A stretch of 64,000 nucleotides of DNA from Tetraselmis striata. Lineage: Eukaryota; Chlorophyta; Chlorodendrophyceae; Chlorodendrales; Chlorodendraceae. The stretch lies in assembly GCA_006384855.1 (NCBI GenBank), contig VCJN01000157.1, positions 1 to 64,000 on the forward strand, in the 5' to 3' direction. Shown here one piece after another: positions 2,766-64,000 of the stretch (positions within the stretch are counted from its first letter, which is position 1; each line of letters opens with the position of its first letter). The position numbers were made by a program, and so were the translations under genes. The notes under the pieces are model-generated. The model ran no database searches. It worked only from the letters and a program-made list of their open reading frames with translations, and was not told the origin of the DNA.

Positions 2766-3608
2766 GTGGGGGCACGTCGAGCAGACGCAGCCCTTGGTCG
2801 AGCGGGTCGGGCGGACCGGCTGGCAGACTCTCGAGAGGGTGGCCGCGTGCGGGGGGGAAGCGGGGGGGGGGGGGGGGGGGGTTGCTAGGCACCTCCATCG
2901 CGATGGGACCTACCCCAGCCTGCATGGCAGTAACCGATAGCGTGAGCTGCAAGTCTCTATAGCTGCCTACTCACCAGCCGTGCAGAACTACGCCGAAGGT
3001 AGGCGGAGTCCATTCATGTCACGGATCCGGGCGTTCGCGCCTTTTTGTGTAAGTTAAGACCCTGCATGCCTGTGTCGCGTGGGATCCTTTCCTATGAATA
3101 GTCGCTAACTGTCTGCCACGGCCCGGTTTGGGTTCTGGGCAGCCTTGGCGGTGGTGGAAAGGTATACTAGTAGCGACTAGTAGTACTGCGCAGCCCCCCC
3201 TCCACTCGAGTGGGCGGGATAAGGGATGGCGGCGGCGACGGCGAGTACAGTACTTTGCGCTGTATATGTATGTCTGTAGTACATTGTTTGGCGCGTGAGC
3301 TAGTAAATTGTCCCATTTTCAGTGAGTCAAAAGTGAAGTATAGTGGCCTCTACCGTTTACGCTATAATATTGCGCTTTTCTCGCGGACTTCACGTCGTGG
3401 CAAATGCCGGAAAGGCCATGTGCCGCCCACTCGTGTGCGGCGTGACTGGAGTCGCCCCCAGAGCAACGTGCCACGTGATCAGCGGGGTATAAATAAATAC
3501 TCTACACCGCTAGATGAACACAAGCCGCTTAAAACCGGCCCCAACGGGATACCCGTACCCTGCTGTGTACTACCGCCTGTACTCTACTAGCGACTAGAGC
3601 TGCCATTC
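2766..3608. other. Spacer without a recognised gene
   Basis: It holds a G-run at about 2862-2881 and the dispersed-repeat fragment described at 3378-3490. I see no exon pattern. It ends at the target duplication of the LTR element. Confidence 0.5.
3378..3490 (-). repeat. Fragment of a retroelement also present at 51.3 kb
   Basis: About 110 bp beginning CGCGGACTTCACGTCGTGGC matches 51314-51432 with few differences. The 51.3 kb copy is continuous with a retroelement C-terminal coding remnant on the minus strand, so this is probably a small piece of the same family. Confidence 0.6.
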
Positions 3609-4103
3609 TGTCGGAGGGAGATTGTCGAAGTGATGGCTGAGTGGCACTGTCACTGATGGAAAGAGAGTCGGCGTGTATGCGTCGAATCACGTCGAGTGCC
3701 AGCAAGCGAGATGCAAACTGGGAAGGCAAAGGGCTGCTATGAGCCGTGGGCGATGGACGAAAGGTAGTCGCTGTCGCCGTGGTGATGGCTGAGTGGCACT
3801 GTCACGAGAGAGAAAGGGTGAGTCGGAATATTTCTGGAAAAGCAGTTGACTGAATTACAAGGAACCGAGGCTGGCAATTTATACCAGCCGGCTAGGTGTC
3901 AATTAAGACGGACACCTCTCCGTCTAAGAAGGCCAACTGGCAAAGATGCCTAGGTGCCATGCTTTGGTAACAATTGGGTGTCGTACTTCTGCCATAGGGT
4001 CCAAATTAGGCACATGTACGGCAGCCAGTTGTTCACTGGAAAAATGCGGATTTCACAGAGAGAAAAAGCGGATTCAGGGTACCGGGGTACCCTGGGTCCA
4101 ACA
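3609..4103 (-). repeat. 3' LTR of the 3609-8400 element
   Basis: 495 bp, TGTCGG...CCAACA on the plus strand. It is preceded by the target duplication CATTC at 3604-3608. No difference from the other LTR was seen when the two were read side by side. Confidence 0.9.
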
Positions 4104-4347
4104 CCCCTCCTCATCCTGTGGAATCCCGCGGGCGCAGGACTGATGGCGGCAGGGGCGCAACGCAAGGCTCCTCGGATGACCCCATCAGGAAAGCGCAGAA
4201 ATGAAGAAAGGTAGTCAGCGGCAGCGCTTTAGCGAAGAATTCGGCCAGGTGGGCCGGGGTAGGCGTAGTGCATGTAGATGATGCCGTCTTAGTAGAGTTG
4301 GGCCCCATACTGAAACCGGAGGTCAATGTGGCGTTGCGCGCATGTAA

Positions 4348-7300
4348 TCATACCATGTTGCACTTGAACGATGCATGCGCGGTTGTCCCCGCATACTTGC
4401 ACCGGGGCATCAGTGGGGTGGCAGAGCTTGGCGTAGAAGAACGCGAATAACCGCCAGACATATGCAGACCACGCAGAGCGCCACGAACTCCGCTGCGGCA
4501 GTAGACATGGCCACGCTGCCTCCGAACCTGCGCACGGTAGGTGACTGCAGTGTTATGAAAGTTGGCATTCAGCGTGCAGGGCAGGCGGCGAGGCTTGCTC
4601 TCCGTCATGTGAAAGGTAGTCAGAATGTCAACGATGCAGGTTTCCCGATGAAGATGGATCACGCTGCCCGGCTTTGAGCTGATGAAGCCGAAGTCATGTA
4701 GAAAGGAAGAAAAGCACAGAAACCATGCCTTGGATGCCTGCGGCAGGTCGTAGAGTGCCTCAACGGGATGCCAAGCCCGGTCCTTATGGCCACAGCCGAG
4801 GGGGAGGTAGTCATAGGCATAGGTCTCGTTGGTGGTGAGAAGATTGCCGCAAACGATCACGCCGGCCTCGCGCTTGATGTTGCCATCCTCGTGCTGCGCC
4901 GCAAAGGCCCACGCCGTCCGTTGGATGACCGCTGACTCGTTGTCGCATCGAAACTCAGGGACGTTGATCCAGACGAAAAGTGCCATCGTGGTGATAGAGT
5001 TGATCTCATGGTTCACGGACTTCTTCCAGTCATTGGGACGAGTGCTGGAGATATCCTCCTGATAGTTGCGCGGCGCCGTGGACACGCGGACAGTGGGTGC
5101 TGGTAGGGCGAGGGCTGTCAGCCGCGCTGAGCGGGGGCGCACAACCGCCGCGATCGCGGATGCCACCAGTGTTGGGTGGTAGTCGCTGAGGTCGACATAG
5201 TGGGAAGTCAGTTGTGCCTGTTTGCTGGTGTGAGGAGCCGACAGTACCGTGGCGTCCCCCTCCTGATGGTGCGGAGGGTGCTGCTCGGTGTGATGTGGAG
5301 GTGGGGGCCCCTCCTGCGGCGAAGCAAGCGCCGCCGATGGCAGCATGGGTGGCGGTGCGTGGGGCCCCTCCTGCTGGCCCGAGGGTTGAAACGCGTCCAT
5401 CAGGTAGTCAGCGTTGGAGAAGTGAAAGGCCGGCATAGAGAGAGGCGGGGCCTTGCGCCCGGTAGCCGGGTTGTAGATGCGGCGGCCACTGAAGGGGCCG
5501 GGGTCGGCGAGGTTGATGGCGGCGACGTTGTTGCCGCAGTTCCGGATGTCTTGCGGTTGAGCGATAAAGGTCCACAGGAGGGTGTCGCGGTGAGCCGCCG
5601 AGCCGCAGGACGCCGCGCGCACGATGTTGCATGCGCCAAGTGAGGAGAGTACTTCAGGTAAGGCCAGCGCGTCTGGAAATATATTCTGCAAAATATAGCG
5701 CAGTGGTGTGAGCTGAGAAGACAGGTAGAAGCGGGTGAAACCGATGACGGAGGCAAAGGCACGAGAGCGATGGTCATGCCAGTCAAGGCGTGAGCCCGTG
5801 CGTGACCATGGTTGACACGGTGCGCTTGACACGACGAAGGTGAACGGGCGCAGCCGCTCCAGCTCCGTGATGGTGATGTCGTTGATGTTCATGGGGGTCC
5901 CGTCATGACAGTCCTGAAATGCTGATGGAGGCAGGCGGTCCGGGTATTTGCTGCTGATGACCTGTAGGTGATGTGGCCACATAGTGCGAGCCTCCGTTGA
6001 TGGGTCGGCGCCGATGAACGCGTGGATGGAGAAGCCGTATTCCACCACAGCCTCCACCTCAAATGCCGATGGGCCATGGCAGGGCGAGAAGAGATGTTCG
6101 ATCACCAAAGAAGAGCTCGGCATATGGAGGAGCGGGGCAGCGGTGAGTATCGGGAGCGGCGGTGGCAGGTCTCCACGTAGGGCGCCCTGCCCCGTATGAA
6201 CGTCGTGGGCCGCCAGTGCCGTTGAGGCTGGGAATGCGGGTGAAGCGAGGCATAGAGGTCGAATTGGGGTGGGAATGGGTTGAGAGTGGAAGTGGCGGGC
6301 ACGCCATGGGTCTGAGAACGGGAACTGGAAGTTGTCGTCAGAGTTGGAGTAGGGGACGTGCCAGGATTCATGAAATTCATCGGCTTCGTCGTCCTCGCCC
6401 TCCCCCTCCTGCGCTCCGGTGGCTGCCCCTCCTGGGGCGTTGGTGGTGGAGGTGAGCATGACAGGCAGGCCGCTGTGGTGTGGTGCCAACGAGGACACAC
6501 CAATTAACGGGTAGGCCTCCTGGCATCCTGGCGGCTGCTGGTCGGAGTCGTTGTTGGCCGGGTGATGTCCGTGGTGGTGATGTCCGCCCGGGGAGACGAA
6601 GCCGAATGGCTGGTGATGGCGCTGCAGGTCGTCGTTGTCGCTCTGGATGGGCCAATATTGCTGCCGCTGGGGCCTGTTTTGATGGTTGTAGTCGTTGCGC
6701 AGGTTGTGGGCATAGTTGTCGTTGACGTGACGCTCCGCAGGCGCGCGCTGACAGTGACCATAGCTAGGGTTGTTCATGGTGCTGGGTGGGGCGGTGTCAC
6801 CCAGGAGACGCAGGCCGTTGGCATGGCGCCTGGCCAAACACTGCTGCTGAGCATGGCCTGGACGGTCACACCTGCTGCAGACAATGTTGGGCCTGGTGGC
6901 ATGTAGTTGGTCCCTGGGGTCGCAGAAATTGAGGGTTGGCGTGCGTGAACGGGCGCGCTGCTGACGCTGACGCGTGCGCGCCTCCATGTTCTGTCCGGCA
7001 CTTATGATGGTTGCCAGCCGCTTGGTGACATTGGCTGCCGAGATGGTGGCGTCGACAATGTGATCGTATGCTGGGTGAAGTCCTGGGATGAGGTAGTTGA
7101 TGGCCACGTACTCGAATGTCCACTGGCCATGTGCCTTGCGCAACAAATTCCAGAGGTTCCGGCAGCGGCGAACGTACACCTGGACCGGCTCATTTGGGAG
7201 CTGGCCTGCTGTGATTTCTTCCTCCAAGCGCATGCGCTCCTCTATGGCCGAGCCCTGGAGTTCAGTAAATAGGGGCGTCCAGGCCGCATATCCACACTTC

Positions 7301-7731
7301 CTGGTGTCCATGCAGATGCTGTTGACGATGGCCAGCGCCATGGGATAATGTGCCGTTGCGTGGCGCAGGGCTGCCAGAAGGATGATTTGTTCCTGACGGG
7401 TGCCTTTGCCCTTGGTGGTGTCAAGGTAGCCGGCGCTGCCGAGAGCGATCTTGATAGCTTGAGCGTTGTCCCGCGTAGAGATGGTATTGTCCCAGATGGG
7501 GACGTTCTTGAGGTCGAGTGTTGGCTTCACTGCAGTTGGCTTGATATGCTGGATGTCACCTGAGTCACTGTCTGATGCCTCGTCCATGCTGAAGGTGTCG
7601 TCAGAACTGGTATCATCACGGAAGTCAGGCGGTGGCGGGGCGTCGCCAGGGTCCGGCTTGATCGCACTTTGCCGAGCCAGATTGGCCAGGGGGGTGTTCA
7701 TCATGCCGGTGGTGCTGATGCTAGTAGACAT
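4348..7731 (-). CDS. Gag / methyltransferase-like / reverse-transcriptase polyprotein of the LTR element
   Basis: A long open frame on the minus strand fills the internal region. The frame opens inside the LTR, but the Met at 7731 (MSTSIST) is the first convincing start. In order it shows: an acidic N-terminus; a Gag-like helical region of the Copia type; a CCHC zinc knuckle (CSRCDRPGHAQQQC) near 6880; a Gln/His/Pro-rich linker; a C5-cytosine-methyltransferase-like region at about 6111-5551, with APCQPWSRTG (the catalytic PCQ motif IV) and a motif-VIII-like HRDTLLWTF; a second Pro/His-rich linker; and a Copia reverse-transcriptase region at about 5073-4621, recognisable by ALYDLPQASKAW. Methyltransferase domains inside LTR-element polyproteins have been reported in dinoflagellates and charophyte algae (recalled, not checked). 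Whether this domain is active cannot be judged here. Confidence 0.8.
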   Translation of the reverse strand: MSTSISTTGMMNTPLANLARQSAIKPDPGDAPPPPDFRDDTSSDDTFSMDEASDSDSGDIQHIKPTAVKPTLDLKNVPIWDNTISTRDNAQAIKIALGSAGYLDTTKGKGTRQEQIILLAALRHATAHYPMALAIVNSICMDTRKCGYAAWTPLFTELQGSAIEERMRLEEEITAGQLPNEPVQVYVRRCRNLWNLLRKAHGQWTFEYVAINYLIPGLHPAYDHIVDATISAANVTKRLATIISAGQNMEARTRQRQQRARSRTPTLNFCDPRDQLHATRPNIVCSRCDRPGHAQQQCLARRHANGLRLLGDTAPPSTMNNPSYGHCQRAPAERHVNDNYAHNLRNDYNHQNRPQRQQYWPIQSDNDDLQRHHQPFGFVSPGGHHHHGHHPANNDSDQQPPGCQEAYPLIGVSSLAPHHSGLPVMLTSTTNAPGGAATGAQEGEGEDDEADEFHESWHVPYSNSDDNFQFPFSDPWRARHFHSQPIPTPIRPLCLASPAFPASTALAAHDVHTGQGALRGDLPPPLPILTAAPLLHMPSSSLVIEHLFSPCHGPSAFEVEAVVEYGFSIHAFIGADPSTEARTMWPHHLQVISSKYPDRLPPSAFQDCHDGTPMNINDITITELERLRPFTFVVSSAPCQPWSRTGSRLDWHDHRSRAFASVIGFTRFYLSSQLTPLRYILQNIFPDALALPEVLSSLGACNIVRAASCGSAAHRDTLLWTFIAQPQDIRNCGNNVAAINLADPGPFSGRRIYNPATGRKAPPLSMPAFHFSNADYLMDAFQPSGQQEGPHAPPPMLPSAALASPQEGPPPPHHTEQHPPHHQEGDATVLSAPHTSKQAQLTSHYVDLSDYHPTLVASAIAAVVRPRSARLTALALPAPTVRVSTAPRNYQEDISSTRPNDWKKSVNHEINSITTMALFVWINVPEFRCDNESAVIQRTAWAFAAQHEDGNIKREAGVIVCGNLLTTNETYAYDYLPLGCGHKDRAWHPVEALYDLPQASKAWFLCFSSFLHDFGFISSKPGSVIHLHRETCIVDILTTFHMTESKPRRLPCTLNANFHNTAVTYRAQVRRQRGHVYCRSGVRGALRGLHMSGGYSRSSTPSSATPLMPRCKYAGTTAHASFKCNMV

Positions 7732-7905
7732 CGCGAAGGTGGAAGATGTATAACTGTAGGGTGGGCGGGTGGGAAGAAAAATCTCGTCGCACGTCGCCGT
7801 CGATCGTTGAAAACTGTCGAGGGTCGAGATACACGCAGGTTGAAGCCTCTGGCAGGCGTCGAGCACGGGGCAAGACGTCGAACCAAAGGAGAGGGCCCAA
7901 AAACC

Positions 7906-8400
7906 TGTCGGAGGGAGATTGTCGAAGTGATGGCTGAGTGGCACTGTCACTGATGGAAAGAGAGTCGGCGTGTATGCGTCGAATCACGTCGAGTGCCAGC
8001 AAGCGAGATGCAAACTGGGAAGGCAAAGGGCTGCTATGAGCCGTGGGCGATGGACGAAAGGTAGTCGCTGTCGCCGTGGTGATGGCTGAGTGGCACTGTC
8101 ACGAGAGAGAAAGGGTGAGTCGGAATATTTCTGGAAAAGCAGTTGACTGAATTACAAGGAACCGAGGCTGGCAATTTATACCAGCCGGCTAGGTGTCAAT
8201 TAAGACGGACACCTCTCCGTCTAAGAAGGCCAACTGGCAAAGATGCCTAGGTGCCATGCTTTGGTAACAATTGGGTGTCGTACTTCTGCCATAGGGTCCA
8301 AATTAGGCACATGTACGGCAGCCAGTTGTTCACTGGAAAAATGCGGATTTCACAGAGAGAAAAAGCGGATTCAGGGTACCGGGGTACCCTGGGTCCAACA
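7906..8400 (-). repeat. 5' LTR of the 3609-8400 element
   Basis: 495 bp, followed by the second CATTC copy at 8401-8405. As the element reads on the minus strand, this is the upstream LTR and should contain its promoter. The AT-rich string GGCAATTTATACC inside it could supply a TATA-like site, but this was not tested. Confidence 0.9.
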
Positions 8401-9614
8401 CATTCTATATATTCATGCGATTAAGTACGATTGTCTCTGCATCTTATAATTGCTACTAAACACATATTTATTGTTATTATAAATAGAAATAAGGATGAAC
8501 TGTACCTGTAGCTGGAGGTCAGCGATGGCTTTGGCTTTATTACAGACTAAATCCTTTACATATGTTTCCAGTCCTGTCCGAGGACCGGGAAGATCCTTGG
8601 AGGTCTACTGCTCCTGGTACCGCCTGTAGTGGCATGTCTTGGTTTCAATGCCAGTCCTGTCCGGGGGCGGGAAAAAAGCATGTCGTGGACGTTGTCCTTT
8701 GTGATCCAACGGTAGTGCACGCCGACGTGTACGCAGTTGCGACCATCACAGCGTCATCTGTAGCGTGATTTGCTGCCGGAAAGCTAGTTCTAGGTACTTC
8801 TCCGACACCTCATGCCGATCTCGCCGGGTGCATGTTACCGAGCAATAGACGGATGGGGTGCCTCCAGAACTAGCGCCTTGCAGGCTCTGCAATGCACGCT
8901 GGCATACGACGGGGCGTAATCAGGTCAGGGACCCTCTGCCGGTTCGTCCGACGACCGCGAGCGAAGGTACCAGTACGCATATCGCGATCATGCGTGGCGC
9001 GACCACGGTACGAGGGTACTTGGGGTGTCCCTCGTAGAGATTTAGGTTATAGCGAGCGCGATACACGCCAGCATACAGCGGCGCCTGAAATGTAAACACA
9101 AGCTGGTCCAGCCAGGTGAGCGCTGGCGTGTACGCAGTTGCGCGCATTGCGCAGCACCCGTAGCGGCTGATCCGGCAAGCTATATGCGTACTTCTCCGAC
9201 CCTCATGCCGATCTCCACGGGTACGTATAACCGATACATTGCTGGAGCGCAAAGGGAAACTAGCGCCTCGCAGGTCATGCAAGGCACGCCGGCGTGTACG
9301 CGCTGCGTACAACGGGGCGTCATCAGCCGAGGGACCGTGGGACTGCTGGAGTAGAATTATTAACGACCTCCCGCGCGCAACTGCGCGTAACGACTCATTG
9401 CAAGCCAGCTGCGCCCGACGAACGTAAGGTGATGGTCGCTTGGCCGAGAGGGTTAGAGCGGGCGACAATGCCGAGGCTGACAGCGGCGTGATCACAGAGA
9501 ACGCCATCCAAGGCTTGACGCCCGCAGACCAACTGCACCGCGCTGTAGTGTGCCGACAGGCCGGTTTATCCGGGACAGTACAATTCCTCGTGCTGTCAAA
9601 GTACATCTGCGGCA
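8401..9614. other. Spacer upstream of the dynein-like gene, mostly repeats
   Basis: It begins with the second target-duplication copy and an AT-rich stretch. It contains GTCCTGTCCGAGGACCGGG (8572) and GTCCTGTCCGGGGGCGGG (8651), which resemble the end of a dispersed repeat family seen at 15.3, 40.0, 49.4, 50.3 and 51.6 kb. The duplicated block at 8711-9335 follows. The promoter of the downstream gene should lie at the right end, but no clear element is visible. Confidence 0.5.
8711..9335. repeat. Diverged tandem duplication, about 410-bp spacing
   Basis: The segments 8711-8925 and 9125-9330 share an ordered series of blocks: GTGTACGCAGTTGCG, then GTACTTCTCCGAC with CTCATGCCGATCTC, then AACTAGCGCC with GCAGG, then an ACGGGGCGT block. 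They differ by many substitutions and small indels. No coding potential was recognised. Confidence 0.65.
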
Positions 9615-29671: not shown

Positions 29672-31554
29672 TCATCGCTCCTTCAGCTCGCAGGTCCACT
29701 CGGGCGCGGAGGAGGACACCGTCGAGACGAGGCCCAGCTCCTCGCCGCCGCCGCCGCCGCCGAGGCCGGAGCGCAGCCGCGTGAGACCCAGCCGCGAGGC
29801 GGAGGGCGGCACCAGCTCCGCGCCCCCCGGGACCGCCGAGGCGCCGCCGGAGGGGGTCGGGTGCAGGGAAAACGCGGGCATGCGCCTCCAGCGCAGCGCC
29901 CACAGGGCGCGCAGCCGGCGGCTGCACAGCGCGGCCGCCAGCCCCTGGAGTGGGAAGGGAAGGGGGGGCGTCGGTCAGCACCTGTCACAAGTGGACGAAT
30001 AAAGGGGACCGCACGGGAGAGACACCATAACATCATGCAACAAGGACTTAATATGTTACCAGTGCTATTATCGGTGCTACTACTACCGTACAAACACAAA
30101 CGGATAAATAACGATTTTGAACCCCCACGAGGATTACAACAGAGGATTGCAAACTATAACAACGGAAAAACAAGTCAAAATAAAGCGAGAATACAACACC
30201 AATATTCGGACTCAAGGTGCAAAACAATTCATTGCTTGGGACTGTATTTAATTCTACGGTATTGCTGGTTTATCTATCTATCTATCTTACTATCTATCTA
30301 TATGCCTGTCTGTCTATATGTATGTAAATTGAACTATAAGCATGATTAATTAAGACAGTGAATCGGTGCGATGCGGGCATGGGACCGGTCAGGCTGTCGC
30401 CCACCAATGCCAGCAGCAATACAAATGTTATTAAAGTGCAGCGGCGGGCTCATGGGCACATTGTTGTGCCTGGATTGAGGAAAGAGCGCGTCCCACTACC
30501 GCCATCATAGTAGCAGCCAATGCTCTGGTTTGATGGGGCGGCGTTTTGCACGCTCGGGTACGTTGATTGTGTGGCGCTTGCCGGTAGTAGTGGTGGGTGG
30601 CTGATGTTTGAGATGTTACCCTCGAGGGAACGAGAGGGGGGGCAGTCGTATCAATCAATCCACGAGTTGAGCACCATTAGATGCAACATCATATGCTCTA
30701 CACACGTTGATGCACAGTAAGGCGTGTAAGCTCAATTTGGGTGGCAGTACATGTTCGGCAGTGGTCCGGGTGCCGACGCGGTAATAGGGACACTGCGAAT
30801 CAGAAGCTGCCATGCCTGCCAGAGGTGGAATCTAGGCTACACTATAGTGAACCAGAACAATAGCGAATGTTCTCATAGGTTGCAGAGCAAGCCCAGTTTG
30901 AGGCTTGTTATGATAGGGGGTTCTCATTATCGGGGCGCCGGGATCCGCAGTCAGAACTGGATGGATCAAGACGGGGAGAGGTCAGAGCGGAAGGGGCGTG
31001 GCAGTGCCATGGCGGGCAGCGCACCAGGAGGGACACGGTGCTGGCGCCCACGGAGACCCAGGCCCAAACGGGGATCCCGAACCAGCCGCGGCGCGTGGGG
31101 TCGTGGATCTCCATCTGCACCGTCTCGGGCGCCACGATCGGCTGGGCGTTAAGCGCCTGTGCACAGCCAGAAAGTGAAAAGGGAAAGGGGGGGGGGGGGG
31201 GGGGGGGGGGTGTCAGTGCCAGATGTGGGCGGAGACGACTCAGTTAAGGGGAAAAAGAGGGCCCGTAGGGGAGAGGGGGGAGGGGGGGGGGGGGGGCACC
31301 TTGGTGGTACGGGAGAAGAAGGCGTCGGGGCTCTTGGCCAGCAGCTCGATGCCATTGTCTGCGCTCAGCTCCTGGACATTCACCTGGTTGCCCACCGCGC
31401 CAGGGTAGGGATGGAGAGCAGGGAGATTGTAGGGTTTTAGGGTTTTGACTCGTGTTTTAGGATATATATATATATATATGTTGTGTGTGTGTGTGTGTCT
31501 GTGTGTGTGTGTGTGTGTACATATATAGAGAATGTATATATGTACATATATATA

Positions 31555-31587
<33 letters not shown>

Positions 31588-34500
31588 ACATATATAGAGA
31601 ATGTATATATGTACATATATATATGTATATGTGTGTGTGTGTGTGTGTGCAGTGGGCTGATCCAGGTACCAGTACCATCCAGCGGAAGGAGGGGAGGTGG
31701 GGGTGGGGTGGGGGTCTCCGCACCTTGGCCGTAATGTCGTCGCTGCTGTCGTCCTGCAGGTTGACGTCCGCTGCCAGTGTCGCCGTGACGTTGGCGGTCA
31801 GCAGCCGCCGTCGCGAGGCGGCGCCGCTGCTGTCGTTGCCCGCAAGCGCGAGCCAGGCCACCACCTCAGCCGGCAGCTCGGGCAGGCCGGCGGATGCTGC
31901 GCGGGCGTCGCCGGTGGCAGCCTCATTCTGGTCTGGGCCGCTCCCAGAAGCAGATGCCGTCTGGTTGGCCCTCAACCGGGTAGTGCCATTCGAGACCGAC
32001 CAGCCCGCTGGTGGCGACGAGGGGTCGGCGGGGCGCCCGGTCGACGAGTCGGACGACGCCGACGAGGCACGAGAGGAGCTGTTGGTGCCGGCGGAAGTTT
32101 CATTTTGGTTGCCGGCAGCCAGCTGGGCCATCGGTGGGCCGCGCGCGGCCGGCGCCATGAAGCCGATGAGGTGGCCGCTGGCGTCGGCGGGGTGCAGCAC
32201 GTGCAGGCCCACCTCGACGTCGGCCAGCGGCACGCGAAAGACGCTGGCAGTGTCGAGGCGCAGCAGGTGTGCGACGACCGCCTCGATGGAGCCCACCAGG
32301 CTCGTGCGCAGCGTGACATCCTCCAGGTCGGCGGTGTCCACCAAGAACGCAACACGCAGCTGCACGATGACGGCGTAGTCGGTGCTCAGGTCGGTGGGGT
32401 GCGCGGGCTGCGAGCAATTGCCGGCGCCGGCCGACGGCGTGGTGAGGTGCGGCGGGCACAGCAAGCACGCGCGCGCGCCCGGCCAGGGCGTGTAGGTGCC
32501 AGTGCCGCACTGCCGGCACTCGCCGGCGCCCCAGACAGGAGAGAAGCCTCCCGGTCGGCACGGGTAGCACCGGCCTGCGAGGCTGGGCGAGAAGCTGCCG
32601 GGGCGGCACAGCCCGCAGGCGACCGAGTCCGGCGAGCCCGACCAATAGCCGCGCTCGCAGGCCTCACAGCCCGCCGCTGCTAGCGCGTCGGGCAGCGCCA
32701 GGGGCGGCAGCCCTGCCTCTAGCACGGGAGGCCAGAGCGGCTCCGGTGTGCCCGTGGCATTGGAGGCGGCCGTCACCCGAGACGGCGACGAGCGTCCCGC
32801 GGAGCGAGGCGGGCGCTGCGCAGGGACGGATGGCGCTCCCCCACCCGTGCCTAACGGCGTGCCCTTCCCGCCCGTCGCCTCCGACTTCCCGACCCCCTCA
32901 CTCTCGGACGGGCCGAGGCGAGTGGCACGGGGCGCATCCTGGTTGCGGCGGTCGTTCAGGCGGAGCGTGTATGTCGCGGACGTCACGCCGTCCTCGGCCA
33001 CCACGAGGATGCGCACGCTAGTGACGGCCGGACCGCTTCCGGCGGCGGCGAGCGGCAGCGCCACCAGCGGGAGCGTCCCGGCGCCGATGCCGTCCAGCAC
33101 CTGAAGAGAAAGTCACGCGATGAGAACAGGGTGAAAGGGGAGAAAATGTGTGTGTGTGTGGGGGGGGGGGGGGGGGGGGAAGGGGGGGTCAAGTGACCAT
33201 AAAAAAGGTGGTTCGTGGCACGGCAAGGCGAGCAGCAGCAGCAGCAGAAACATTGTCCGAAATAAATATTCACCTCCGAGCCGACCTCCACGCGCACGCC
33301 CGGCACGCCCGCGTGTTTGAGTGTCAGCGCCAGGAAAAAGCCGCCCTCGTTGCTGCCCGAGCCACCGCCGTCGTCGAGCAGCTCCACGTCGATGGGGCCA
33401 TCCGCCGCGCACGGGCGATGGACGTCGATGGACGGCGCAGTAGGCCCAGCGTCCAGCCCATCCAGCTGCTGCCAGGCTTTCGAGCGCTGCGGCGCGTCGG
33501 CGGCGGCTGCCGACGAGTCGCACGCGAGGGTGTTCTGAGCGAGAGACAGCACGCGCACGCTGGCCAGCTCCGCGTGGGCGGGGTCCGCCAGGCGGGTGAC
33601 GCTGAGCGTGTAGGGCGGGGGCAGCGGGCCCATGGCGCTTGCGTTACACGCGGCGGTCGGCACCACGCGGAAGGTGTTCTGCCCCACAGCGACCGGCAGC
33701 CGCCAGCGGAGCTTGCCGCGAAACTCCTGCGGCTGCTGCACCACCGTCTCCGCCCCGGCGGGCGCGGCCTCGCCCACGTCCGCCCGCGCCAGCCGACCGT
33801 GATTCTGCCCCAGCATGTCGCACAGGGCCAGCGGGGCGGACGACTGCTCGCACGCGGCCGCGTACTTGTCAGCGCCGGCGCTATGGGCGCCGCCTTCTTC
33901 GTCGTCGCCGCCGAGAAGCGAACGTCGATGGGGGCCCTCGACAGTCACGTTGGCCAGCTGCTGCTGCTGCTGCTCCTTCAGCACCGCGGTGGCGTCCGAT
34001 ATGTTGGCCCCCGCCAGCATCAGGTTGCCCAGCGCGCTGGGCTCCAGCACCAGATGGGAGCTGCGGTAGATGGCCTCCACTTGGATCGGCACCGTGCTGG
34101 TGGTCTTCAGGTCCAGCGTGATGGCCTCCACCTGGCTGCCCACGTGAGCGCCGTACTCCAGGACCTCCGGCCGGAAGCGCGGCGAGACCGGCAGGGCGGC
34201 GGTGGTGCCGCTCGAGTTGGTGGTGATGGCGAGGTCAGAGGCCATGACGGCGGCGGTGCCGGCGCTCTGCTCCAAAGACCAGCTGCTTGGGGCGGGTGCG
34301 GGGGCGGCGCCGTCGCCCTCCGCGGTGCGCGTGCCCAGGGGGCACACGCCCCGCGGTGAGCCGAGCACGTGCAGCAGGGGCTGCACCCCCGGCGCAGCGT
34401 CCACCCGCGCGTTGCTGCTGGTGTTGAGCGCCAGCATGGCTCGAAGGTAGACCTGCCGGCGGCGCATCAGCAACAAGCGCAGACTGAGCGCGAGGCGCCG

Positions 34501-37500
34501 CGGAAGGGTGGCAAGGGGGGCGTCGCAACGCACAGCACAGAACCACACCAAGATTGCTAGACGCCAGACATGGACCTACATTATACAGCGACAAGAAAAG
34601 CATCCAAAATCTACAGGTGCCTAAGCAACAACAACAATAGCCCCTTGTGTAAGCCACGGATTGGCGTTGCATGCCACCTAGCTAAAACAACGCTCCGTAT
34701 AGTTCCGCAGTACTTTTTCTGTCTACATCCAACCTCTGGCAAGCACGGCAGGTTCTTATTGCCAGTGCATTTCTTATGATTGATGCATTGGCACCTGCAT
34801 CAAGGTACAACACGTAAGGTAAACATAGTTCCGGTACAGAACAATTCATTTCAGAGTTTGGACCCACGGACCCGACCAGATGATACGGTGTGTCCCCATC
34901 TGTCTTTCCTGTTTCTGCACGTTTGGCTGGCATCAAAAACATTCTCACCATAAAACAGGAAGGTGTTTAAGATGAGCTGTATGTTCTCATAAAAACGTGA
35001 ACGAGCAGGACCGTTTGGGCGAGTGGGAATGATTTTCCACGGGACACAGGGTAGAGTGGTGGGGAAGGGGGTGCACCGTGTCGTCCAGGGCGTCGGGCAG
35101 GATGTCCACCGCCACCTCCTGGGGTCGGCACGGGGGCCGGCTACCCCCGCAGCTCTCCCACTGCAGGGAGGCGCGCGGCAGCCGCACCAGCGAGGCCCAC
35201 TCCGGCGTGAGAACCACCAGGCGCACGTCCACCGCCACGGAGCGGTGCAGTACAGCGCCCGGCTGCAGCGGCCCCAGGCTGAAGGCGACGCGCACCACGT
35301 CGCGGCGGTCCGGGTCCAGCTCGGCGGCGTACAGCGGCGCCGGCGCCGACAGGACGCCAAAAGCGGGGAGATCCGCCTCCAGCTGCAGCGCAGTGGTGCG
35401 CGCGTCGCCCAGCTCGGCGTTGGTGACGTTGGTGAGGGCGACCTGCAGCTTGCCGGGCGCCGAAGCCGCGGCGGAGTCGCCGCCGGGTGGCAGCACAAGT
35501 GCCACCACCTGGCTGCCGGAGCTGCCGGGCGGCCACACCGCCTCGGCCTCGATGAGCGGGCCGCGCGGGGACAGCCGCAGGGGCGAGCCCCCGACGCCGC
35601 GCTCCTGCAGCTGCAGGCTCGCGGTGACCAGCGCGCTGCTCTGGCCCTGCATGCCCACCTGCACGTAGACGCGGCTGTCGTTGGCCAGCACCAGCGAGCT
35701 GCCGTCCAGCAGCGACACCACCGGCAGGCCGCCCCCCGCAAACAGCACGTGATCCTGCAGGGAGCACGTGCGCCGAGCAAGGGAGGGCCTCAGCCGCCGA
35801 GCATATGCGTCGGCGCCCGCCCAAGCTCTCGTATGGTACTGGACAGGCGATGGACCCATATACAAAACGAATGACCTGCGGCCCTATATGCCACGCAGCC
35901 AAGAATTGTCAAATTTAACGTGGTATGGCGCCCGCAGAGGCCAAGATCCACTCCCTGTGTCTCTGTAGCATCATAAACCTCTGATCTCGCTGAGCTTGCG
36001 CAGGCCATCGAGACGGATAAATGACACTCACGGTGCACATGGCGCAACGGATGCTCTTGATAATCCCGGAGCCAATGCTCAAACAGAGACGGTACAGCGA
36101 TATTTTCTAACTACGGCGATTCACTTGGTGCATGGTAATATGCGGCATCTGCAAACGGGTGTCAACGCGGTAACAAGAACATTGCGAATCAGAGGCTGCC
36201 CTACCCGTGAGAGGTCAAATCTGGATGACACCATTACTCCGAATGTTCCTCTAGGTTGCTAGGAAGCGCAATTGAAGCGTGTAATAAGGGTTCGTATAGG
36301 TGCGCCGGCACCCAAAAGTGTGTCTACGGGTACAAGTTGTGTACACGCGTCCAAGCCCTGGCACAATACAAATAATACAAATAACAAGTAGACCCGTTGC
36401 AGGAGTGTGGGATCCGGAGAACCACAGGGATCAATTGTAGTAGTCGCTACATTGTACAGCCTTGCGTCCGATCCGCCGACATGCCGATCCGGGGGGCCGG
36501 CGTCCGTCCGTGGACGAGCGGCAAGGCGGACGGGCAACGGACGGGTCGGGTCGACGCGGCGGGCTCAATGGCCACGCTTCGCGCCATGCCTGACCTGACG
36601 AACGGCGATGACCGGCCCGACTACCGGCGGCGGCCGGGCGGCCGGTACCCGTACCGGTACAGGTAGTCTGCAGATAAGCGCGACGGTTATTTTGGCCTGC
36701 GCGAAATTATCACGGAAGCTACAACGGACACATTTTCGATCTGTCGAGTAATCTATGCGAAACCGTTGCAAAAGTCTGCGACAGACAGACAGACAGACAC
36801 ACCTCGTAATTAATATGGTAGGATATCAACTTGATTCATGCATTGGCTTCAGAGCGTATGGACTGCATGATAGCTGTTTGTACGGCACGGCGATCAGGGC
36901 CCTCTGCGCGCGCTTGAGGCACAGCGGTATTTGGCATGCGCCCGCCAATGGTGCGGCTAGCTGGGAGCACTGTGGGGAGCGCTCACCTCGCCGGCGCTCA
37001 CGCCCTCGTCAGCCACCTCCCCGGTCGACAGGGCGTGGTCCACCACCATGGGGGCAGAGAGGCTGTGGCCCACGCCCACCTCCAGCGGCAGGGAGGCGCG
37101 CGGCAGCTGCGGCCTCTCCGGCGTGCTGCAGCCCACCTTCACCGGCTGCGAGGGGCCCCGAATGAGCTGCCCCGGCATGAGTAGGTCCGCCTGCCCCGCA
37201 TTGGCGGCGCCCACCAGTCGGCAGAACAGCTGGCCGTCCACGTCGCCGGGGCTGCGGAGCACCCACTCCGCGGCCCCGGGCGCCAGGCTGACGCTCAGCT
37301 CCGTGGGCCCCGCGCGCCGGGCGGCCTTGGGCTCCACGTCGACCACGCCCAGCCGAGTCAGGCGTGAAGGCTCCACCACCACGCGGAGCGGCGCGCAGCC
37401 GGCAGCGCCGCGGATGGCCACCACCGGCCCCGGCGCCGCGGCGGGAAGGATGCAGACGGCACTGGTGTCGTTGAGCACGGTGGCGGCGAGGAGCGCACCT

Positions 37501-40777: not shown

Positions 40778-40970
40778 TCGCTGCGTGTAACACAGCGAAA
40801 CTGGAATATGGCAGGCTCAGCTGTTATGGCTGCTTTTATGTCTATTCGTGCTGCACCCAAAAAGGGCGCAACAACATGTGCCTAGGAACCCGTACCACTG
40901 AGCAGCACGGTAGTTGGAAAAAGCAGTTCGGGGAAAGTAGGAAACCCCATAAACAAGTTTAGAACATTTC
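40778..40970 (-). repeat. Direct repeat, left copy
   Basis: Matches 43862-44053, for example GGCTCAGCTGTTATGGCTGC, GCACCCAAAAAGGGCGCAAC and GGGAAAGTAGGAAACCC. It overlaps the end of the recombinase reading frame. Confidence 0.8.
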
Positions 40971-42266
40971 AAAGTTGAGTCTGGTTTTGCCAGTCATGAG
41001 CGAACGCAGAGAGCGGTGGATTTCGGAGAAGGGGTTGCGCCAGGTCATGCAGGGGGCACCGGGAAGGCCATTGCTGCGGAGTCTTGTACTCTTGTTGGAC
41101 TTGGAAGTGGCGAAAGGGTGCGATATGTGGCCAAAGAAGAACCACGCGCCAGGCAAAGGAAGGACGTTGGGGTCGATGTAGTCCAAAACGACATCGGAGT
41201 TAGTGGCCCAGTCGCCTTGATAGCGACTGTGGGACATTGGAGTTCCGATGGCGTCAGCGGCAGATGTTGCTCCTTTGCGAAGGCTGTGTGAGCTCCAGGA
41301 AGTGCCGGCGGCGGGGGGGGGGGGGGGGGGGGGGGGCAGCCCCGACAAGACGAATGGCCGTAGAGAGCCATTCCGACATTGTGGCGGCAGTCCAAGACTT
41401 GGAATGCTCGCTCGGGGTGATCGCCCAGAAGTGTGTTTCGCCCAAGGCAACAGGGGCCAAGGGGACAGATTGTACGTGGTCGATGAAAATAATGGTGCAG
41501 GACATGCGCTATACGGGGTTGCTCCGACACCGACTGGAAGGAGCAGCACGCGCAAATCGTCGGGCCCGCGTCGACCGGCGCGGCCTTTCTCGCGGTACAC
41601 ATGCAAGGTAATGTTGTAGTCGTCGACACGCACGTCCCGCACTCGGCAAGACACGCCAGTAAGTCCCTTGGCAAAGAGCAGGAAGTTGACAACCGAGGCC
41701 AAGAGGGCTCGGAAGTCGTACTGGTATTCGGGGAAGAGAGGAGACACAATCGACTCTGCCCGCTCGACGAAGTTGTAAGCGACATCAGCAGCAAATGGAC
41801 ACGAAAAGGGGCAGCTTCCATGCGGCGTTAGCATGGGGCCACGACGAGCCGCGATAAGGTGCCGGCTGTCCTTGGCGATCGGGTCGATGTTTTGCAGCTC
41901 AAAGGAAGTGTTGATTGCTGACAGGTAGGGCTCTAACGACTTAGCCCCTATGTGCCCCCGCTCATCAATCCAAGCAACGTACCGGACGACAGTTAGGTAG
42001 CAGTGGTCGCCTCCAGCGGGCTGATGTTCTCGGATTCGTGGCAGAACTCCGCAAACTGCGACAGTCTGCCGGCGTAGCTCTTGAGCGTCTGAGCGGAGAG
42101 GGAGATGGAGAGTAGGTCGAGGGTCCGTCCGCTGTCCCAGCTCGTCTGAACCGAACGCTTCCTTTAAGCGAGACCGGAGTGAGGCAGCCCAAGGGGCGAC
42201 GGCCTCGGGCTCGTCAATTACGTAAGTACCGCGCTTGGCCGACGGAGTCTCAGGGGGACGGTTCAT
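40959..42266 (-). CDS. Tyrosine recombinase of the 40.8-44.1 kb element
   Basis: The frame starts MNRPPETPSAKRGTYVIDEP. An N-terminal SAM-like core-binding region (YLSAINTSFELQNIDPIA) precedes the catalytic domain. Signatures are VSCRVRDVRVDDYNITLHVY around the first active-site arginine, HSLRKGATSAADAIG (the H-x-x-R box), QGDW, and a candidate nucleophile in VLDYIDPN. A proline run of low complexity, coded by a long homopolymer, lies between the two halves of the catalytic domain. Elements of this type integrate by site-specific recombination without an integrase of the DDE type. Treated here as a fossil of a mobile element, and not as a host gene. Confidence 0.7.
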   Translation of the reverse strand: MNRPPETPSAKRGTYVIDEPEAVAPWAASLRSRLKEAFGSDELGQRTDPRPTLHLPLRSDAQELRRQTVAVCGVLPRIREHQPAGGDHCYLTVVRYVAWIDERGHIGAKSLEPYLSAINTSFELQNIDPIAKDSRHLIAARRGPMLTPHGSCPFSCPFAADVAYNFVERAESIVSPLFPEYQYDFRALLASVVNFLLFAKGLTGVSCRVRDVRVDDYNITLHVYREKGRAGRRGPDDLRVLLLPVGVGATPYSACPAPLFSSTTYNLSPWPLLPWAKHTSGRSPRASIPSLGLPPQCRNGSLRPFVLSGLPPPPPPPPAAGTSWSSHSLRKGATSAADAIGTPMSHSRYQGDWATNSDVVLDYIDPNVLPLPGAWFFFGHISHPFATSKSNKSTRLRSNGLPGAPCMTWRNPFSEIHRSLRSLMTGKTRLNFEMF

Positions 42267-42719
42267 GTGAGCAAATTATTCAGCGGCAGCTGCTAAGTTT
42301 TTGGCGGTTGGCCGGTGGTTGCTGGACGGGTTTGCAACATCATCAGTACGGGTTTATTTGCGGGGCCATGTTCATGTAGGAGGGCCGCCCCGCGCGCCCT
42401 TCGCGCTCGTAGCGCATGTTACGCGCGTAACGCACACGCGCGAAGCTTGGTCGTTGCGAACCATTTGTAACACGCAGTGTGACAACCGCCGGGCGCAACG
42501 ATGGGGTATGAGAGGCGAATTGTTGAGCCGCCATGTGCAGGTTTGTGGATGGTTGAGCCGCACTCGGCTGAAGCTATAAGATGCGCCGCACCGAGGAAGG
42601 TCTACATGAAGTTTGTGAGGTTAGGGGGGGGGGTCCGGTGCGGACACATGGCGCTCATCCCGCCGTTGAGCTGCTAGGGTTCGCTGTGCGGCGGTCACTG
42701 AAATAAGGTGGCCTCGCAA

Positions 42720-44970: not shown

Positions 44971-45126
44971 AATCATAATCATAATCATAATCATAATCAT
45001 AATCATAATCATAATCATAATCATAATCATAATCATAATCATAATCATAATCATAATCATAATCATAATCATAATCATAATCATAATCATAATCATAATC
45101 ATAATCATAATCATAATCATAATCAT
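44971..45126. repeat. (AATCAT)26 microsatellite
   Basis: 156 bp of uninterrupted AATCAT units. The purity suggests recent expansion or active slippage. It is open in all frames (Asn-His, Ile-Met, Tyr-Asp repeats), which produces false ORFs. Confidence 0.95.
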
Positions 45127-54555: not shown

Positions 54556-55716
54556 TTACAACTTGATCATCCATTCATGTTCCAAGGCCTTGTCTGCCGT
54601 CAAACGCAACTCGGTGTCCAGCTCCATGAGTTGTGCTATCAGCGCGCTCGCCTCAGGGGTAATCAGCTGCATCGCGGGGTCGTTGAAAGTTAGCGGACCC
54701 TCACGGACTGCTGTGATCAAGTCTGTGACGTTTTTCGCTTTGAAAGGCGCGTCGCCCACAAGCAGCACATAGAGCACGACTCCGACGCTCCAGACATCGC
54801 AGCTGACGCCATACCGCGCGCGTCGCCGCAGGACCTCCGGCGCAGAGAAATGAGGAGTCCCGCAGGTGGCTGTGAAGTGCGGTTTGTCTTTTGACAGCTG
54901 CCCCGCGAGCCCAAAATCGATTAGCTTTATCGTCAGGTGGTCGGAGGCGTCCACGCACATAATGTTGCGCAGCTTCAAGTCCCTGTGCGCAACCCCTCGC
55001 TTGGCCAGGTACGCCACTGCACTTACAAGCTGCTTCATGACTTCGCGAGCGTCCTCTTCGCAATAAGACCCTCGCTCGGAAAGTGACGAAAGAAGTTCCT
55101 TGCCCTCCAACAACTCCGTCACCATATAGCATCCCTCAGGCCCCCTGCAAAACTCGCGGCACTTAACGATATTTGGGTGGTCGAGCTCAAGAAGCAAACG
55201 GGCTTCCCGCACCAGGTGCTGCGTCTCGTCAGGCCCTGCCGCAATCTTGCAAGCCCACGTCTTCCCGGTCTCGTTGTCAACCACTGGTCTCACCTCGGAA
55301 AACGCACCCTGGCCAAGGAGTTCCGTGCTGGCAATCCTGTACCGTTTCTCGAAAACAGCCCAAGCAGTTTCACCGCTACAGTCCACCTCTGTCGGCCTCG
55401 AGTCTGACAGCTCGGGGACAGTCAGGTCGGTGGGCGTAGGCCTCCGCCCGCCGAATCCGAAACTCTTTTGGAAAAGCGTAGCAAGCCGCTCGACGCTGCT
55501 GTTTCGCTTCGGTGGTGGTCGGCGGGCCTTGCCGGCGCCACCCGCGCGGTCTGCTGGCTTCTGTTCTGGATTGGCGGAAGGGTTTCGCCCGCCAGTGAGG
55601 AGGCTAGCTAAGTATTCCACACTTGTCTGCTTCTTCGGGGCTCGCCGCACCCGGGCTCCAGAGTTGTTGCGGACGCACAGGTCCCCAGGCAGTTCGGTGC
55701 CAGTACCTGCAGACAT
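54556..55716 (-). CDS. Ser/Thr protein kinase, CAMK-like, intronless
   Basis: 386 residues in a single exon. The kinase domain spans about 126-386 with all key positions: glycine loop GQGAFSEV (135-142), Lys157 in WACKIAA, Glu171 in the C-helix, HRDLKLRN (244-251), DFGL (267-270), SAPE (291-294), DVWSVGVVLY and Arg371. CGTPHFSAPEVL and the DVWSVGVVLYVLLVGDAPF pattern are of the CAMK/CDPK type, but no calmodulin-binding or EF-hand tail follows. The protein ends right after the domain (EWMIKL). The N-terminal 125 residues are basic and disordered, with a duplicated motif, TSVEYLASLL (31-40) and SSVERLATLF (73-82). An intronless gene among intron-dense neighbours suggests retroposition or lineage-specific intron loss. 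The substrate is unknown. Confidence 0.92.
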   Translation of the reverse strand: MSAGTGTELPGDLCVRNNSGARVRRAPKKQTSVEYLASLLTGGRNPSANPEQKPADRAGGAGKARRPPPKRNSSVERLATLFQKSFGFGGRRPTPTDLTVPELSDSRPTEVDCSGETAWAVFEKRYRIASTELLGQGAFSEVRPVVDNETGKTWACKIAAGPDETQHLVREARLLLELDHPNIVKCREFCRGPEGCYMVTELLEGKELLSSLSERGSYCEEDAREVMKQLVSAVAYLAKRGVAHRDLKLRNIMCVDASDHLTIKLIDFGLAGQLSKDKPHFTATCGTPHFSAPEVLRRRARYGVSCDVWSVGVVLYVLLVGDAPFKAKNVTDLITAVREGPLTFNDPAMQLITPEASALIAQLMELDTELRLTADKALEHEWMIKL

Positions 55717-55901
55717 TTTTGCACCAGTGCTACGCAGCGCTTGGCAGCTTGAGGCGTGTTAAGGCTCAGCGAGCTATGTGTCGTCCGAAACAGGTTGGCT
55801 CGCCAGAATCGGTGGCGGCAGCATCAGGAGGGATGATAGTCGCGACAGGGTACCGGTACTGTACTGGTACGCGTGCATTCGTAATCGGTATCTCCACTGC
55901 A

Positions 55902-62249: not shown

Positions 62250-62716
<467 letters not shown>

Positions 62717-64000
62717 GTATGCTTGTAATTTGAAATTTCTTAAAACCTTATTCCTTCTTAGTCTTTGATGCTAAACAGGTTTTTTACGGCCCGGATGCAC
62801 GAACCCGCATATGGTCCACAAATTACAACGCGTAGCATGCAACCCTCTGACGGCCAAGTCCCTAGCTAATTTCCCCTCCTGCATAGTGACTCCGCGTAGG
62901 CAAAGTCCCTCCTACAAGGCTACAACCATGTACCTACAACAATGTACGGGCTCCAGGCACACATTCACTAGTTTGTGTAGGGAAGTTGTGAGGGGCACCG
63001 CCCCCCAACCCGCTTAGCGAGGAGCCCCCCCCCCCCCCCCCCCGCATCCCTCCCCACCCCCGCATCCCCCTGTGTAGCAGCATGTATCAGAGCAGCGACA
63101 TATAAATACATATACATTCTTTTCTTGTACATGAAGCATATGTATTAGAGTTGTTGCATCGTCGGTACCCGGGTGTTGTATTCGGATTTCCCCGCCAGTG
63201 AGCGTGTGCTCATCCGTCGTCCGTGCCGCCACGCATTATCGTAAAGTAGCGGCGCCGCGCCCGAACGGGCAGGCCGCGCCGCCGCCCGAGATCGGGGCCG
63301 CCGCCTCAGCCGCCAGCCCATGTCCACCCAGCCGGCGCTGCGATGACGCGATCAGCCGTCAGACCCCTCTACCCCAGCTCGGGTGTTGGTAACGCCAGCG
63401 CACGAGCCCGTGGCTTCCTCTGCCGTCGTCACGCTCAGTGGCCGCCCGTCTCGCGTGCCGTGTCACATGGCCGTTGTTGCCTCCGCGATTTTGGGTGTGA
63501 TGCCACCGGTCGTGACGGTGACGCCGCGCGAGGGCTCGCCCCCAGCTCAGTCTCCTCGCAGTCCGCCAGCAACATTAGATCGGCCGCTTGGGCTGCCGGG
63601 TTCGCTGGTGTCAGATAGGCCGACTTCGACCAGCGGCTGGCCGACGATTGGTGTTTCGGTTTCGATAACGGTTTCAAATATCTTTCAGTCGATATTTCAG
63701 GGGTCGCAGAGGAGCGCGGGTGCCGCTGCTCCCCTCCTATGCGCGCCGCGCTTCGGTCCGCGGTTGTCTCGGTCGTCGTCGTGAGTCTTGGTGGTTTTCA
63801 GTGTTTCTGCGCATTCGCGCTGCTGTGGGGCAGCGCTGCGGGCCGGCAGTTGGGCAGTAAGGCAATCGGAGGACGTGCATGTGATTGTTTTGTAGTCGCT
63901 TGTTGCGGGCAAGCGCGGGCGCGGGTGCGCCCCTTTTGCGCGCGCAGCGCCTCCGCTTTCGACTATGTGGTTTTCATGGTACTCGGTGGTCTTCCATGCA
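62717..64000. other. Right edge, no gene recognised
   Basis: C-run at 63027-63044, then a GC-rich block from 63190 to the end. A plus-strand frame at 63383-63784 (ASAILGVMPPVVTVTPREGS) is Pro/Ser-rich and could be the start of an exon or an element ORF that continues beyond the window. There is no diagnostic motif. Confidence 0.4.

Follow-up and report, generated by a model that had tools for sequence, protein, structure and literature searches.

The stretch of DNA analysed here, referred to as the window, comprises the first 64,000 nucleotides of contig VCJN01000157.1 from the chlorophyte alga Tetraselmis striata (assembly GCA_006384855.1). At positions 3609-8400, on the minus strand, it harbors a retrotransposon of about 4.8 kb that carries the remnant of a C5-cytosine methyltransferase in its polyprotein (Table 1). 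The element has the hallmarks of a Copia insertion: its long terminal repeats (LTRs) end in TG..CA and agree at 495 of 495 positions, and a 5-bp target-site duplication flanks them. Both features had been described in an original prediction made from the letters alone, and the recent insertion proposed there is supported by the identical LTRs. No primer-binding site was identified in the element.

The single polyprotein with a zinc knuckle, also part of that prediction, is borne out by an open frame that starts inside the 5' LTR and contains an ATG (MSTS..) at 7731. The knuckle is evident by eye; the Pfam family zf-CCHC_5 scores 13.9 bits on it, under its cut-off of 27. A profile search likewise confirmed the methyltransferase-like domain, with PF00145 matching residues 697-749 at 23.4 bits (E 4.8e-5; curated cut-off 22), a match that spans just positions 44-97 of the 324 in the profile. 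Aligned to the 320-residue domain of the longer, parent-type relatives described below, the remnant covers residues 4-211. Its catalytic glutamate has been replaced, and motif X is gone along with the C-terminal third. The structure predicted for the remnant is poor (mean predicted local distance difference test score, pLDDT, 59) and derives from a shallow alignment.

Table 1. Features of the retrotransposon in the window.
Feature	Position	Strand	Remark
Single open frame, 1,211 amino acids stop to stop	4348..7983	-	fused Gag, methyltransferase remnant, integrase tail, reverse transcriptase remnant
Gag zinc knuckle CX2CX4HX4C, residues 369-382	6838..6879	-	by eye
Truncated C5-cytosine methyltransferase, residues 627-830, motifs I to VIII only	5494..6105	-	PF00145 match and alignment
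Catalytic Cys (PCQ)	5815..5817	-	retained in window copy; Leu in 18/30 satellite copies read
Catalytic Glu of ENV motif changed to Gln (QNIF)	5686..5688	-	sequence/alignment
Deletion junction, methyltransferase joined to integrase end	5488..5499	-	parent residues ~910-1459 absent
Integrase tail, linker, reverse transcriptase remnant	4552..5487	-	at least 2 in-frame deletions in reverse transcriptase
5' LTR	7906..8400	-	495 bp; same sequence as 3' LTR
3' LTR	3609..4103	-	495 bp
Target-site duplication, left copy CATTC	3604..3608		read at element edge
Target-site duplication, right copy CATTC	8401..8405		read at element edge
Candidate polypurine tract GGATGAGGAGGGG, adjoins 3' LTR	4104..4116	-	read from sequence, no shuffle control

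Comparison with the parent type shows how much the element has lost. Its frame matches parent residues 25-909 and resumes at residue 1460, which removes the end of the methyltransferase, the protease and most of the integrase. The Copia signature predicted for the reverse transcriptase (RT) stands in part: a remnant can be aligned to the parent-type RT, but PF07727 finds no match in the frame at E up to 10, and in-frame deletions have taken out the FDVTCAFLN and YVDD blocks, and with them both catalytic sites. An own protease, integrase and RT are thus lacking. Because the stretch missing at the junction and both RT catalytic blocks are absent, the window element is, judged by its sequence, a non-autonomous Copia derivative.

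It is one member of a larger family. In the 224-Mb assembly (2,903 contigs), the search for other copies with the same LTR that had been proposed with the prediction gave at least 40 matches, which are the 40 scored of 356 candidates. A search with the methyltransferase gave at least 151 (150 of 411 candidates were scored). Given these matches elsewhere in the genome, both counts of which are lower bounds, the finding in the window is not a chance one. The methyltransferase matches fall mostly into three tiers of about 80-98%, 71% and 36% identity, the first of which is the family of the window element, here called the satellites. Both full LTRs were found in nine of 11 satellite loci (the window and ten fetched ones), which measure 4,792-4,980 bp from end to end; the other two show one full LTR within the fetched stretch. 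The two LTRs of a copy differ at 0 to 12 of about 500 positions in these nine loci, and the target-site duplication is exact in seven, agrees in four of five bases in one and is missing in one. As far as read, the family is therefore short and recently mobile.

Reading the methyltransferase in 30 satellite loci among these matches reveals the same damage throughout. The match to the parent-type domain stops at residue 210-226, mostly at 211, and the catalytic glutamate is a glutamine in all 30 copies, the window included. An extra residue beside the ENV site is found in six of them, again including the window copy. Stops interrupt six remnants and 24 are stop-free; ten satellite places hold open frames of 1,203-1,237 amino acids, one with a TAG inside the match. 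The ratio of nonsynonymous to synonymous substitution rates (dN/dS), which here and below is a pooled pairwise value from copies that are not independent, amounts to 0.69 in the 24 stop-free remnants (codon bootstrap 0.52-0.99), the six copies with a stop being left out. Going by its motifs, the enzyme of the satellites is dead, and the window element is very probably unable to methylate anything. The proposal of self or host DNA methylation by this element is unsupported, and we reject the window element as a methylating agent on account of its truncation and of the glutamate lost in every copy read.

A possible donor of the missing functions is found in the second tier. This parent-type family consists of Copia elements of about 7 kb, read at one locus (L049) as a single frame of 2,162 amino acids in the order Gag, zinc knuckle, DNMT3-like methyltransferase, protease, integrase, RT and RNase H. 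Pfam recognizes PF00145, gag_pre-integrs, rve, SH3_retrovirus (E 1.5e-22) and RVT_2 (E 7.1e-44), that is, the Copia order with its type of RT; the rve match upstream of the RT reaches 29.2 bits, under the cut-off of 32.6, the protease was recognized by its LIDSGAS motif and RNase H by eye. PF00145 scores 36.8 bits (E 3.9e-9, profile positions 45-116), and by alignment the domain has the PCQ cysteine, the ENV glutamate and motifs IV, VI, VIII and X in their usual order. Parts of 265 bp from the paired LTRs differ at four positions, and the LTR is 89% identical to that of the window element. A second copy (L052) is 99.95% identical to the first, the 6,039 bp common to the fetched pieces containing two differences and one gap; the match stops at the LTR end and the two are therefore separate insertions. 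The parent type is young.

The enzyme of the parent type also appears better preserved. Among the at least 151 methyltransferase matches, open frames of 1,621-2,162 amino acids with a stop-free match are present at ten places. ENV is present in all 11 parent-lineage copies read and the catalytic cysteine in ten, the eleventh being frame-shifted there. For six stop-free copies the dN/dS of the domain is 0.37 (codon bootstrap 0.24-0.56); pairing L049 with five divergent copies gives 0.24-0.42, and 0.62 with a sixth, which is frame-shifted. Database proteins labeled jgi/Tetstr1 in EukProt, with gene names of the form TSEL_, reach 99% identity to the domain of the parent type, and P0040, a cluster of 31 member sequences, combines PF00145 with Copia domains. 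With its catalytic cysteine and glutamate retained, the parent-type family would be the only one here to which the idea of self or host methylation applies.

The third tier represents another Copia family (L050, L063-L066) whose methyltransferase shares 36% identity with the domain of the window element and 40-41% with that of the parent type. Its domain order, read in L050 only, is the same as in the parent type, and its active site shows PCC-E instead of PPC-Q.

What kind of methyltransferase these elements carry was examined by profile and fold comparison. A profile built from eight relatives places DNMT3A/3B first among solved structures (E 7.5e-16), followed by M.HhaI and DNMT2. The complete relative P0024 yields a model with a mean pLDDT of 72 (268 of 410 residues at 70 or above), for which DNMT3 entries are the best fold matches (E 3.6e-13); all 50 Foldseek matches listed are DNMT3. 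By profile and model, the enzyme is closest to DNMT3 among the solved DNMTs. Motifs I-IV-VI-VIII-X, under their customary names, follow in line; because this order is linear and not rearranged as in the plant DRM type, a DRM identity is rejected.

Relatives of the Copia domain were sought among 5.8 billion proteins, one of the searches scoring only the 7,996 candidates that shared most words. Three Gypsy-type polyproteins (P0048, P0049 and P0051) and one of the long interspersed nuclear element (LINE) type (P0050) belong to the same methyltransferase family, with 25-36% identity over 91-100% of the domain. P0048, P0049 and P0050 carry RVT_1, unlike Copia, and the three Gypsy-type proteins have RNase H and integrase domains of their own type, again unlike Copia. 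Each of the four contains a PHD finger. The LINE-type polyprotein P0050, of 3,489 amino acids, unites in a single frame an endonuclease, RT, PHD finger, PCIF1 domain, C5 methyltransferase and RNase H. Further fragments are found among the scored candidates, some with Gypsy domains (P0057, P0066). Ordinary methyltransferases rank far lower: outside the retroelement group, the first scored proteins have E values of 8.7e-11 (P0079) and 6e-8, with 17-33% of the domain aligned. Seven matches to P0024 came from phage records, with identities of 27-42% along 16-45% of its length, and a scan of viral contigs with one peptide pattern returned nine stretches, none of them a relative. A close source among bacteria, phages or viruses did not emerge from these searches.

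A tree of 30 of the 35 sequences (P0061, P0076, P0079, P0082 and P0085 were omitted as partial or distant) groups the five Copia domains as one clade (100/98) and adds the LINE pair along with two Gypsy rows to give a set (95/91). Twelve other rows, of which three have Gypsy domains, make up a second set (100/99). The 21 rows of the two sets are split from DNMT3A at 93/90, and eight bacterial-type rows split off at 100/100; a bacterial name is given by the source for P0084 and P0091 and assumed for the other six. The sole DNMT3A entry is a fragment on a long branch, and host algal DNMT3s are not included. The profile gives 177-321 bits for 12 database rows unused in building it and 96 for P0076, compared to 59 for DNMT3A and 41-60 for bacterial-type rows, and it is biased to retroelement rows since it was built from some of them. 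The methyltransferases of Copia, Gypsy and LINE elements appear more closely related among themselves than to DNMT3A or the bacterial enzymes. Given the long branches, that of DNMT3A among them, and the missing host algal DNMT3s, the tree suggests a single retroelement lineage and does not go beyond this.

The reading that best accounts for these observations, to which we assign a probability of roughly 85%, is that the window element is a satellite of a Copia lineage that captured a DNMT3-like methyltransferase between its Gag zinc knuckle and protease, that the parent machinery mobilizes the satellite, and that the parent methyltransferase marks complementary DNA (cDNA). The Gag-Pol anatomy, the structure of the copies, the recent insertion and the catalytic residues lost in the satellites and kept in the parent type are observed. 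In the proposed sequence of events, a Copia lineage would have acquired the C5-cytosine methyltransferase into its Gag-Pol frame. Contained in Gag-Pol, the parent enzyme would travel inside the virus-like particle, be released by the element's protease and methylate CpG sites of new cDNA before or at integration, so that the cDNA may mimic resident methylated DNA or be shielded from host nucleases or deaminases. For the packaging, copying and integration of its RNA, the satellite would rely on the parent family's enzymes; with these at its service, its own methyltransferase would have become dispensable and decayed. The satellites, about 4.8 kb long and present in tens of copies, kept their LTRs, recent insertions and, in some copies, an open Gag-fusion frame. 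For the earlier idea that partner elements probably still mobilize the family this means that partners which could do so are available, with long open frames and near-identical copies.

Several points weigh against this reading. Trans-mobilization and cDNA methylation are steps that we infer. There is a slight overlap between the dN/dS ranges of the parent and the satellite, the pooled pairs are not independent, and seven parent-lineage copies including the divergent ones give a pooled value of 0.54 (0.47-0.64). Four of the six divergent copies carry a stop, one of them also a frame shift. The Gag region of the satellites shows no clear constraint either, with a dN/dS of 0.69 (0.45-1.06) in 13 copies after leaving out the 17 of 30 in which the 1,500 bases upstream are not open. 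The SAM-binding motif I of the parent is unusual, reading CHGPSAS where relatives show CGGI.., and activity of the parent enzyme is therefore not assured; this motif, or the PCC-E of the third tier, could mean an altered activity. Finally, a footprint of CpG decay is absent in eight LTR pairs, where five of 19 transitions lie at CpG compared to 20-24% of C and G lying in CpG, and the observed/expected ratio of CpG is 0.90 in the element and 0.94 in the window. The absence of such a footprint does not speak for a heavy and lasting methylation of the copies concerned.

A broader version of the idea would have one retroelement-specific DNMT3-like family, apart from host DNMT3 genes, passed among algal Copia, Gypsy and LINE elements as a cDNA-marking module, with satellites parasitizing the marked particles of their parents. 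We regard it as tentative, at somewhat less than even odds. Should elements of all three kinds turn out to share one enzyme family, that enzyme probably has a function in retrotransposition on which selection can act.

Other roles for the enzyme are conceivable. The parent methyltransferase might target RNA, either the genomic RNA or the tRNA primer, in the manner of DNMT2 and not cDNA. DNMT2 is indeed the best solved-structure match for the single window copy (E 0.01), the location beside the zinc knuckle would suit an RNA-handling role, and RNA methylation is raised for the LINE version in PMC5890265. As the profile of eight relatives puts DNMT3A/3B well over DNMT2 (7e-9 or weaker) and the modeled fold of P0024 is nearest to DNMT3 entries, we consider an RNA target unlikely. 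Still less probable is that the dead satellite protein acts as a regulator which, by analogy to DNMT3L, would pair with, block or steer the enzyme of the parent or host. The remnant stays in frame at the ten open satellite places, the large deletions of the window element keep the frame readable into the RT remnant, and most remnants are free of stops, as this idea would have it; yet one remnant in five is interrupted, the dN/dS of the remnant has an upper bound of 0.99 and is not below that of the adjoining Gag region, and the predicted fold is poor. An open remnant frame could also persist for other reasons, such as mRNA stability. A chance Pro-Cys motif in an unrelated protein, foreseen by the original prediction itself and in keeping with a window match just 1.4 bits over the cut-off that covers one motif region, is ruled out for practical purposes by the PF00145 match and aligned motifs of the parent type and by the agreement of profile search and fold comparison on DNMT3.

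The remainder of the window contains further features. Interspersed direct repeats of 32-36 bp, about 390-400 bp apart, resemble a diverged tandem duplication (8715-9336). An open protein kinase frame (PF00069, E 2.1e-64) lies at 54556-55758 on the minus strand. Adjacent frames at 31457-35908, also on the minus strand, give one match of the ephrin-receptor type and one of the cadherin type below cut-off, and are perhaps exons of one large protein. A frame of 438 amino acids (40959-42275, minus strand) has no Pfam match; its end resembles by eye a tyrosine recombinase, which is a candidate assignment. Two hexamer arrays are present, AATCAT in 26 copies at 44971-45126 (100% match) and TGTGTA in 77 copies at 62258-62721 (95% match).

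DNA methylation is a common route by which hosts silence transposons, and transposons that carry a methyltransferase therefore present a paradox. The coexistence of open, near-identical Copia copies with a defective satellite in the same genome is a natural experiment on the loss of the enzyme in cis, and raises the question of whether this loss alters silencing, insertion or survival of the copies. The phenomenon as such has precedents. De Mendoza et al. describe DNMTs in DIRS, LINE and Gypsy retrotransposons, show that the DIRS-borne SymbioDIRS-Dnmt3 of Symbiodinium methylates CpG de novo in yeast, and report that no DNMT domain occurs in the Copia elements abundant in Symbiodinium (2018, PMC5890265). 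A 2025 paper (PMC12344493) assigns some DNMT3s to LTR Copia and DIRS elements with a reference to the 2018 study, which says Gypsy. The available sections of PMC9998398 and PMC10120064 mention DNMT5/DNMT6 of Tetraselmis or Tetraselmis viruses and no such element. Our literature search, with preprints and most subscription papers outside its scope, found no report of a methyltransferase in a Copia element of Tetraselmis or another chlorophyte among titles and the beginnings of abstracts.

Non-autonomous LTR elements such as TR-GAG are short, have a Gag frame and no functional Pol, and depend on a partner. Unlike TR-GAG, the satellite in the window keeps in-frame remnants of methyltransferase, integrase tail and RT. 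The algal transposon Sola1-1_Ec32 from Ectocarpus and its algal relatives also carry a DNA methyltransferase as an accessory; according to PMC12477816, however, Sola1-1_Ec32 is a DNA transposon, and its enzyme is of the N4-cytosine or N6-adenine type with a ParB-like domain. SymbioDIRS-Dnmt3 and SymbioLINE-Dnmt share with the Tetraselmis elements a retrotransposon-borne C5 methyltransferase and differ in being DIRS and LINE elements (PMC5890265). Another parallel is KnitGypsy-Dnmt3 from Klebsormidium nitens, likewise described in PMC5890265: a DNMT3-like methyltransferase in a retrotransposon polyprotein, intronless, in several copies, within the green lineage and under purifying selection. 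Set apart by its description only, it is a Gypsy element of a charophyte with the domain in Pol, whereas the Tetraselmis parent is a Copia element of a chlorophyte with the methyltransferase between Gag zinc knuckle and protease. This Copia version in a chlorophyte, the position of its enzyme and the satellite with a dead enzyme are what we judge to be new here.

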